DNA of 36,438 nt from a bacterium (lineage in GTDB: Bacteria > UBP15 > UBA6099 > JAJRTR01): contig JAJRTR010000105.1 in the NCBI GenBank assembly GCA_024278215.1, positions 1 through 36,438 on the forward strand, written 5' to 3'. Positions 6,435-36,438 of this stretch are shown piece after piece. Each line of letters starts with the position of its first letter. Positions within the stretch are counted from its first letter, which is position 1. Position numbers and translations under genes: made by a program. The notes beneath the pieces were generated by a model. The model was not told the DNA's origin and ran no database searches. It saw only the letters and a list, made by a program, of their open reading frames with translations.

Positions 6435-6540
6435 AGTGTATGGCGCGGTCACCGTACCGCGCCTCAACTTTTGACCGTACAAACAGTTATTCGTAATATA
6501 TGCTCAGGCGCGGTACGGTGACCGCGCCATACACTTTTTC
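6435..6540. terminator. 30-bp perfect inverted repeat between convergent genes
   Basis: The 30-base arms at 6435-6464 and 6506-6535 are exact reverse complements, separated by 41 bases. Each arm also contains its own hairpin (GGCGCGG/CCGCGCC). On the plus strand the right arm runs into TTTTTC, which fits a terminator for the dehydrogenase gene; on the minus strand it lies just past the WYL gene stop at 6554. A bidirectional terminator is the simplest reading, though the pair could also be two inverted copies of a dispersed repeat. Confidence 0.55.
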
Positions 6541-15154: not shown

Positions 15155-15208
15155 ACACCCTACGGAATCCCACGACTTTGCTTCAGATGTCTAAAGTGTT
15201 ACACAAAT

Positions 15209-15386
15209 GAGCCAATTGCAAAATTATGTTCGAAGCGAGGTCGAGCGAAATTGTTCAGAGCAAGGCAGAGGTGTAAACTCCTCGCAGGCGTACTTGTAGA
15301 GTACGTCGAGGACGATTTTGTACCGACAACGCAGCTATGGACAATAGCAGCCGACCGCAGCCGAATCAGAATTTTGCAATCGGCTC
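15209..15386 (+). mobile_element. R2 element, complete copy 1 (MITE-like)
   Basis: A 178-bp element that begins GAGCCAATTGCAAAATT and ends with its reverse complement (one change, CGGCTC region). It is flanked by AAAT on both sides (15205-15208 and 15387-15390), a likely 4-bp target duplication. Its arms pair imperfectly over about 60 bases and enclose an inner hairpin GTAC...GTAC within CCTCG/CGAGG. No transposase is encoded, so movement would need an enzyme supplied in trans. Confidence 0.8.
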
Positions 15387-15697
15387 AAATAAATAACGAA
15401 AAACGCACAAGTGCAGGCGCATAAAGCAACAATCCAGGGGCGCGGCTCACAGACCGGACAGGGCTGTTGCCAGAGGTTATGATATAATATACCTATAAAA
15501 TAAAACGATAAACCCCTTTGCGCTTTACCTGATAATATATATAATGTGGAGTAGGGAGAAGTTTGTGAAATGCGGCACAAATAAAAACAATAAATCCGCT
15601 TTTTATGGAGGGGATTTCGCAGTGTTTAATGTTCAGATGAATATGTAAAAAACAGCGAAAAACGGGAAAATATTATAGAGAAAAGGGTTATAAAGTA

Positions 15698-18017: not shown

Positions 18018-18037
18018 CCAAATATCGCAAGAATACG

Positions 18038-18215
18038 GAGCCAATTGCAAAATTATGTTCGTAGCGAAGTCGAGCGAAATTATTCAGAGCAAGACGGAGG
18101 TGTAAAATCCTCGCAGGCGTACTTGTAGAGTACGTCGAGGACGATTTCGCGCCAACAACGCAGCTATGGACAATAGCAGCCGACTGCGGCAGAATCATAA
18201 TTTTGCAATTGGCTC
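18038..18215 (+). mobile_element. R2 element, complete copy 2 (MITE-like)
   Basis: Exactly 178 bp, same orientation as copy 1. Its ends GAGCCAATTGCAAAATTATG and the reverse complement are perfect for 20 bases. TACG flanks it on both sides (18034-18037 and 18216-18219), the expected 4-bp target duplication. Internal CTCGCAGGCGTACTTGTAGA and CAACAACGCAGCTATGGAC are shared with copy 1. Confidence 0.85.
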
Positions 18216-18412
18216 TACGAAATATGGCAATAAAAAAACGCGGCCTTCGCAATAGTTTCGGCATCTCACGACACAACATCTAACCCGGCATGGCCGGAAC
18301 CAAACAGGCCGCATTTTCGTGCCCAAACAAATGCGGTTCGAGCACGGCACACAGAGGTTCATCGTTCCCAAGGTCTACCCTGGAAACGCCTGTAACTGGA
18401 AGTTCCGGCTTT

Positions 18413-18470
18413 CACCGATCTCTTTTCAGCATTTCTTTACCATCCTGCGTAGCATTTCAGTCGTAAGATA
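18413..18470 (+). repeat. 58-base repeat upstream of Na/Pi gene
   Basis: The last 50 bases (18421-18470) match 22446-22495 at 46 positions, and weaker similarity extends about 8 bases further upstream (TTCACC). This copy ends about 210 bases before the Na/Pi start; the other ends about 185 bases before the LOG gene. No strong internal palindrome. Confidence 0.65.
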
Positions 18471-18508
18471 ATATATCGTGTCACAAGTAGAATGAGCCGC
18501 GCGCTTTC

Positions 18509-22394: not shown

Positions 22395-22436
22395 CGGATA
22401 ATTGTGAAGTGGTCGCACAGACTGCATGCTCCGCGT

Positions 22437-22495
22437 TCACCAATATCTTTTCAGCATTTCTTTACCATCCCGAGTAGCGTTTCAGTCGTATGATA
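22437..22495 (+). repeat. 58-base repeat upstream of LOG gene
   Basis: Second copy of the repeat at 18413-18470: 46 of the last 50 bases are identical, including TTTTCAGCATTTCTTTACCA. It is followed after 7 bases by an R2 half element, whereas the other copy is preceded by a full R2. Confidence 0.65.
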
Positions 22496-22502
22496 CTATT
22501 GC

Positions 22503-22578
22503 GCCAATTGCAAAAATATGTTCGTAGCAAGGTCGAGCGAAATTGTTCGGAGCAAGGCGGAAAAGTAAAATCTACGTA
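22503..22578 (+). repeat. R2 element, half copy
   Basis: Begins CGCCAATTGCAAAA (first bases diverged from GAGCC) and follows the left arm of R2 through GTCGAGCGAAATTGTTC to AAAGTAAAATC, then stops near the element's midpoint. The opposite arm is absent, as in the 9175 half copy, which keeps the other arm. Confidence 0.65.
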
Positions 22579-24274: not shown

Positions 24275-24645
24275 GAGCCGCTTTCCTGTCTATCACCGGT
24301 ACAGTGCGATAGGAGCGACACTGCAAAATCGGTTCGAGTACGGCACACATATCAGCCTCGTCTGAACATTTTTCCTTCGCTACTGTCATAATATACATAC
24401 GCCATATCATGGAATACTAACCCGCATATTGCACAAATGCGGGTGAAAAACCGAAAGAATGCCCATAATACAAGGCGCGGCAAGTGAGTGGTGAGGGAGC
24501 AGCCGGCCAGCCGGCCTCTTGCGCAAAATGCAGGTATGTGACCGATCCCGAATCGCCGCCGCAACGCAGTAGAATGGGGGTTCTCACGGTTTTCCGGATT
24601 TTTTTGTGAGAAATCCGGGTTAAAAGACAAACAGGGAGTGTTCCT
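24275..24645. other. Spacer dominated by an R1 element
   Basis: The 371 bases before the VIT/VWA gene carry the phrase GGTTCGAGTACGGCACACA (near 24331, a near copy of that at 18336) and the full R1 element at 24421-24618. No gene seen. Confidence 0.6.
24421..24618 (+). repeat. R1 compound palindromic element, complete copy B
   Basis: Left palindrome CCCGCAT/ATGCGGG (24421-24443), long core arms (about 24446-24471 and 24569-24593) and right palindrome (24594-24618; CCGGATT...AATCCGG). The core shares CAAGGCGCGGCAAGTGAGTG and CGCAACGCAGTAGAAT with copy A. The inner hairpin is longer than in copy A because of a GCCGGCCAGCCGGC stretch, as in the truncated copy at 1480. It ends 27 bases before the VIT/VWA start codon. 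Confidence 0.75.
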
Positions 24646-36297: not shown

Positions 36298-36438
36298 GAG
36301 CCAATTGCAAAATTCTGATTCTGCTGCGGTCGGCTGCTATTGTCCATAGCTGCGTTGTCGGCACAAAATCGTCCTCGACGTACTCTACAAGTACGCCTGC
36401 GAGGATTTTACACCTCCGCCTTGCTCTGAACAATTTCG
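36298..36438 (-). mobile_element. R2 element, copy 3, cut by the window end
   Basis: Starts GAGCCAATTGCAAAATT and runs through CCATAGCTGCGTTGTCGG, the inner hairpin and CACCTCCGCCTTGCTCTGA in the reverse orientation to copies 1 and 2. With a normal length of 178 bp it should end about 37 bases beyond the window. The left flank is TTTA, so TTTA is expected after the far end. Confidence 0.8.

Follow-up and report, generated by a model that had tools for sequence, protein, structure and literature searches.

A gene-less palindromic element with 4-bp target duplications shares its interior with a cross-phylum family of bacterial palindromes

In the usual catalogues, each bacterial MITE is treated as the leftover of a particular insertion sequence and as confined to one species or genus. 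Those known include Correia/NEMIS, RUP, Chunjie, and QMITE (reviews PMC10969869, PMC2229807); Chunjie of Geobacter uraniireducens, for instance, is 178–235 bp long, with conserved terminal inverted repeats (TIRs) and direct repeats (PMC10969869). Other small repeats that are palindromic and intergenic include ERIC / IRU (127 bp, enterobacteria), YPAL / RU-2 (about 168 bp), and the REPs, which measure 20–40 bp, carry GTAG or CGTC tags (PMC3733652), and are known from several phyla (PMC3733652, PMC3116915). The element studied here, R2, is like the bacterial MITEs in being short, gene-less, palindromic, and mostly intergenic, with TIRs and target duplications, and like REP and REPIN sequences in being palindromic, high-copy, and intergenic. 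Unlike the latter it is 178 bp long, has 4-bp target-site duplications (TSDs), and lacks a GTAG/CGTC tag; identity with REP or REPIN was ruled out by size and TSDs. Unlike bacterial MITEs generally, R2 has an interior of a type common to several phyla, around which the ends and TSDs differ. R2 as an element is new, and the kind of element, a bacterial MITE, is already known; we found no paper that describes a cross-phylum MITE core, in a literature search that did not include most subscription journals.

R2 was recognized in the window, by which we mean the whole 36,438-bp stretch of DNA analyzed (contig 78 of a host genome of 4.55 Mb in 207 contigs), where its copies and their parts are as follows:

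18038 to 18215, + strand: complete R2 element, 178 bp (main copy), inspected directly in the sequence
18034 to 18037, no strand: TACG, left TSD of the main copy, from the sequence
18216 to 18219, no strand: TACG, right TSD of the main copy, from the sequence
18038 to 18057, + strand: left TIR of the main copy, GAGCCAATTGCAAAATTATG, from the sequence, repeat alignment, and genome count
18196 to 18215, − strand: right TIR of the main copy, the identical 20 bases
15209 to 15386, + strand: second complete copy, 178 bp, with TSD AAAT at 15205–15208 and 15387–15390
36298 to 36438, − strand: third copy, incomplete, cut through by the contig end
9175 to 9239, − strand: fragment corresponding to element positions 114–178
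about 22502 to 22572, + strand: fragment, left part of the element

The preliminary description of this DNA had reported two copies of equal length, TIRs of 17–20 bp, 4-bp direct repeats that differ between the two copies, and a third copy running off the window end, and all of this was confirmed in the sequence, with TIRs present in both complete copies. These two copies are 90% identical across a 187-bp alignment, and the predicted DNA fold of R2 reaches −45.2 kcal/mol, compared with −21.8 kcal/mol in dinucleotide shuffles (z = −7.6). The window holds further repeats: a 67-bp repeat at 18408–18474 and 22433–22499 (88% identity between copies), the second copy of which abuts the truncated R2 fragment at about 22502–22572, and an inverted repeat at 6435–6535 whose 30-bp arms match perfectly across a 41-bp spacer.

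With at most one mismatch allowed, the 20-base R2 terminus matches the host genome 260 times in the forward and 260 times in the reverse orientation, and the reversed terminus pattern, used as a control, has no match. These 520 ends therefore correspond to about 260 R2 copies, or about 1% of the genome; many contig ends lie inside an R2 copy. Whereas copy number comes from terminus searches of the whole genome, flank statistics come from the 1.90 Mb that was fetched (42% of the genome), where 112 hits span the full element; flanks could be read for 108. Of these 108, 71 lie between direct repeats of 4 bp or more (66 of exactly 4 bp and five of 5 bp), as against 2/517 shifted controls (0.4%). 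The 4-bp repeats first seen in the window thus recur across the fetched sequence. Copies diverge from the consensus by a median of 6%, and the TSD is retained in 19/23 copies that are <3% diverged, compared with 7/16 at 10%–20%. Such loss of TSDs with rising divergence is the pattern expected from insertions of different ages, and decay accounts for part of the roughly one-third of full-length copies without a 4-bp TSD. Short derivatives also occur (15 end pairs of 46–122 bp and two of 159–162 bp); their interiors differ and none has been amplified. Most of these short derivatives are consistent with post-insertion deletion across the palindrome, and their failure to amplify is compatible with, without proving, a requirement for the core in amplification. 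With TIRs, a TSD of constant length, multiple copies, and no internal transposase gene, R2 satisfies the criteria for a MITE and is a gene-less palindromic transposable element with about 260 insertions in this genome. Searches of plasmids and phages gave no match to R2; five viral contigs match a 17-base terminus, with one match each, and these were taken as chance.

R2 targets are mostly intergenic and AT-rich, with a C-N4-G preference. Among the 71 copies with a TSD, a C stands at position −1 in 35 and a G at +4 in 38, which together form the symmetric C-N4-G, and both flanks fall within an open reading frame of at least 150 codons for 5/108 copies, compared with 81% of random points. The family is absent from close relatives, and its termini were not found in six genomes of the same order. 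Because no close relative carries R2, the joined flanks of each copy were instead searched against its own genome, and four copies proved to be inserted in other dispersed repeats that have empty paralogues. The expectation that empty sites would show a single 4-bp target was met at three of these four paralogous sites; the fourth is better fit by a 5-bp duplication. Neither outcome that the preliminary description had named as refuting was seen, on evidence that for empty sites comes only from paralogues within the genome. TSDs in 71/108 copies and these empty sites bear out the original claim that R2 is a transposed, nonautonomous element with 4-bp target duplications. The dispersed repeat families that serve as targets for R2 (L115, L116, L114, L174, and their matches) are themselves about 80–170 bp long and abundant in the genome.

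We infer that R2 depends on a DDE-type transposase acting in trans; none bearing R2 ends came to light. The enzyme would cut and paste the ends with 4-bp staggered cuts, and it may have been encoded by an element that is now lost, unassembled, or located in sequence that was not fetched. The preliminary description had proposed looking for a transposase gene bearing R2 ends, and this check was made in part; such a partner would strengthen the classification of R2 as a MITE but is not a condition for it. In 1.9 Mb, no pair of R2 ends 0.3–8 kb apart with matching 4-bp flanks encloses a transposase (a 1,428-bp end pair in L040 was rejected as an autonomous element, since it encloses host genes and its ends are unrelated), and Pfam profile searches of the genome with DDE_Tnp_1, DDE_Tnp_1_4, DDE_Tnp_1_2, DUF772, and Y1_Tnp, which leave many transposase families out of scope, produced no candidate. 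Three DDE_Tnp_1 genes have ends other than those of R2, and neither DDE_Tnp_1_2 nor DUF772 has any gene in the host genome. DDE_Tnp_1_4 (IS1380 type) is represented only by a C-terminal remnant near an R2 copy (L338; contig C44, 16102–16254), which scores 25.7 bits and so falls under the curated cut-off.

The interior of R2 leads beyond this genome. In one genome of the same order, BLAST matched the middle of R2 between different ends, and a first covariance model, made from R2 positions 40–140, matched palindromes that are present in multiple copies in genomes not belonging to this order. A second core model was built on sequences from several genomes and applied at a threshold of E ≤ 0.001 with only ten candidates scored per genome; it matched 31 of 386 sampled genomes and 30 of 327 genera, often in several copies each. 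A control model of reversed sequences, in which hairpins and composition are kept, matched 1/386 genomes with one hit. Statistically, the model search rests chiefly on this single control. Of the 31 matched genomes, seven, that of R2 included, had themselves supplied sequences to the model, which leaves 24 independent hits. The parts of the core and its surroundings, placed on the main copy, are as follows:

18077 to 18177, + strand: conserved core, the modeled region, common to elements of other phyla, from covariance models
18090 to 18094, + strand: middle loop, left side, consensus CAAGG, from alignment and side-by-side reading
18157 to 18163, + strand: middle loop, right side, AACGCAG, from alignment and side-by-side reading
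18112 to 18141, + strand: central hairpin with asymmetric inner loop, CGCAGGCGTAC-N7-GTACGTCGAGGA, found as an exact pattern in named genomes of several phyla
18058 to 18069, + strand: putative outer conserved loop, left, consensus TTCGTAGCGAGG, seen by eye in the class of about 178 bp from other phyla, without statistics
18184 to 18194, + strand: putative outer conserved loop, right, consensus CCGCAGCAGAA (CCGCAGYAGAA), by eye, without statistics

The layout of the core, over about 90 bp, thus reads CAAGG...CGCAGGCGTAC-loop-GTACGTCGAGGA...AACGCAG, and the inner loop of the central hairpin is asymmetric, with CGCAGG on the left and GTCGAGGA on the right. CAAGG-type and AACGCAG-type boxes occur together in 17/35 nonredundant elements versus 3% of shuffles. 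Between the loops, the arms vary in sequence yet remain complementary (60-nt arms with z < −3 in 28/35 elements), and in the cross-genome alignment both sides have changed at seven of the 10 predicted central pairs. At least 89 stretches in the genome collection contain the exact 23-base pattern CGCAGGCGTAC-N(2-9)-GTACGTCGAGGA, compared with a chance expectation of about 0.06 (by arithmetic from 257 Gb, two strands, eight spacers, and 4^23). Among the matches listed, carriers are deltaproteobacterial MAGs, Syntrophobacterales, Geobacter argillaceus ATCC BAA-1139, Acidobacteria, Nitrospira defluvii, another member of the Nitrospirae, Spirochaetaceae, Ca. Aegiribacteria, Eisenbacteria, Sporomusaceae and Anaerovibrio (Negativicutes), Lysobacteraceae, and Pseudomonadales. 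Metagenome bins make up most of these records, and a single genome contributes many of the stretches; ATCC BAA-1139 is a culture-collection strain. No viral contig contains the pattern. The interior of R2 is therefore one member of a cross-phylum family of palindromes with conserved asymmetric loops and variable complementary arms. Another dispersed palindromic family of the window, R1 (CCCGCATATTTCACC.. / AATCCGGATTTCTCAC..; 2808–2989, 24417–24622, and, in reverse, 1262–1603), includes a copy at 2849–2950 that matches the core model at 24 bits; R1 copies in L154, L160, L119, and L095 do not match.

Around the core, different bacteria have different ends and insertion rules:

K_DeepCast deltaproteobacterium element: 178 bp; ends CCTGCATTTCTCACC; CTAG on both sides in 12/13 copies
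G005 element: 179 bp; ends GAGGCTCTAACAAAA; three-base TTA/TAA in 3/3 copies
G092 element: 175–178 bp; ends GAAGCGGTTTCATAAG; TA in 3/4 copies
Syntrophobacterales (Chersky) element: mostly 122–145 bp; ends TACCAATTTGCATTC; TTA/TCA/TGA in six of 11 listed end pairs
R2: 178 bp; ends GAGCCAATTGCAAAATT; varied 4 bp

Core identity between families has a median of 0.69 (shuffled 0.49), and identity over the 20-nt ends a median of 0.40 (shuffled 0.30). Thus, from one bacterium to another, the core sits between ends that are unrelated and that produce different target duplications, a result that, outside the genome of R2, rests on few copies for each TSD class and on element boundaries placed by eye. 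Across phyla, full-length core-bearing elements cluster at 176–184 bp and 114–125 bp, and the sizes of YPAL / RU-2 and ERIC / IRU are near these two classes. By eye, the layout of ERIC (AAGGCGGCAA..CCAGGAGCTTAC-loop-GTAAGTGACTGG..CCAACGCA) also resembles that of the core, although the two differ in the sequence of the central loop. Against the core model, L221, an E. coli ERIC locus, scores 4.9 bits (E = 0.2 over 502 bases) with the register correct, and it gives no hit with a sequence HMM; on these results ERIC has not been filed as a member of the core family. ERIC inserts at TA with TA duplication, whereas R2 duplicates varied 4-bp sites; G092 elements show TA. By its look, one core-model hit (L242, GGAGCTTACTTTAAGAGTAAGTGAGC...GACCAACGCAG) stands midway between E. 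coli ERIC and the core family.

We consider it likely that R2 is a MITE with 4-bp TSDs, mobilized in trans by a DDE-type enzyme, whose interior comes from the cross-phylum core family and is recognized in its folded form; both the mobilization and the recognition are inferred. On this account the core would be kept because something, as yet unidentified, recognizes a cruciform, a single-stranded hairpin, or an RNA, and the outer ends would be exchanged or would drift according to the transposase available. A more far-reaching proposal is that the core, as a nested palindromic module with asymmetric loops of conserved sequence, is an independent passenger found throughout Bacteria and captured repeatedly by unrelated transposons, with a conserved host or replication factor recognizing the fold and aiding the spread or tolerance of its carriers. 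We put this forward only tentatively and regard it as rather unlikely.

The strongest rival, which is not excluded and which we rate as quite possible though short of probable, is simple descent: a single ancient MITE lineage, spread by inheritance and horizontal transfer with related transposases, in which ends and TSDs have drifted and the interior has been retained, so that neither an independent module nor a recognizing factor is needed. The two size clusters shared across phyla fit such a history, as do the CCCGCATTTCTCAC-like ends common to many families, and because identity over the 20-nt ends slightly exceeds that of shuffled sequence, descent with drifting ends cannot be set aside. 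However, the TSDs vary in both length and sequence (CTAG, varied 4 bp, TNA, TA), which implies different transposase groups. Moreover, a transposon is expected to have constrained ends and a drifting passenger interior, and the constraint here is reversed, with the interior conserved and the ends variable.

That the core is instead a functional structured RNA selected by the host (an mRNA stability element, an antisense RNA, or a protein sponge) seems to us unlikely, although conserved loops between variable complementary helices would suit such a role, and ERIC elements are known to alter mRNA decay (PMC2229807). Within R2, 33 both-side Watson-Crick changes were counted versus 10 expected if the sides were independent, a figure inflated by the shared ancestry of the copies. 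Mismatch types, on the other hand, give no consistent strand-specific RNA signal (55 G.T versus 54 A.C in the TIRs, with the arms in conflict), no Rfam family scores above its gathering score anywhere in the window, and there are no expression data. CsrA-like AGGA motifs in the core loops were considered and dropped as speculative.

We give very little credence to R2 as a REPIN-like element moved by a Y1 (HUH) RAYT transposase. R2 is indeed palindromic, high-copy, and intergenic, and the host genome has six Y1_Tnp (IS200/RAYT-type) genes, three of which (L145, L146, L150) adjoin intergenic DNA that contains an R2 copy or fragment, but this association is weak because R2 copies are dense in intergenic DNA, and R2 has no GTAG-tagged REP structure. 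HUH transposition leaves no target duplication, whereas 71/108 R2 copies have clean TSDs and exact ends, and empty sites exist as well. It is equally hard to credit that the core similarity is nonhomologous, with any hairpin that has a GTAC stem scoring in the model, for although the core models weight the palindromic stem and bacterial intergenic DNA is rich in palindromes, the reversed model with hairpin and composition intact found 1/386 rather than 31/386 genomes, the 23-base matches are exact, and the conserved positions are asymmetric and lie partly beyond the stem.

If MITEs with different ends and insertion rules do share one folded core over many phyla, as the preferred reading of R2 holds, then many of these repeats would be one family. 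The long-standing question of why some small palindromes fill genomes could then be tested on a defined sequence, and the loops conserved in the core would point to a common recognizing factor.
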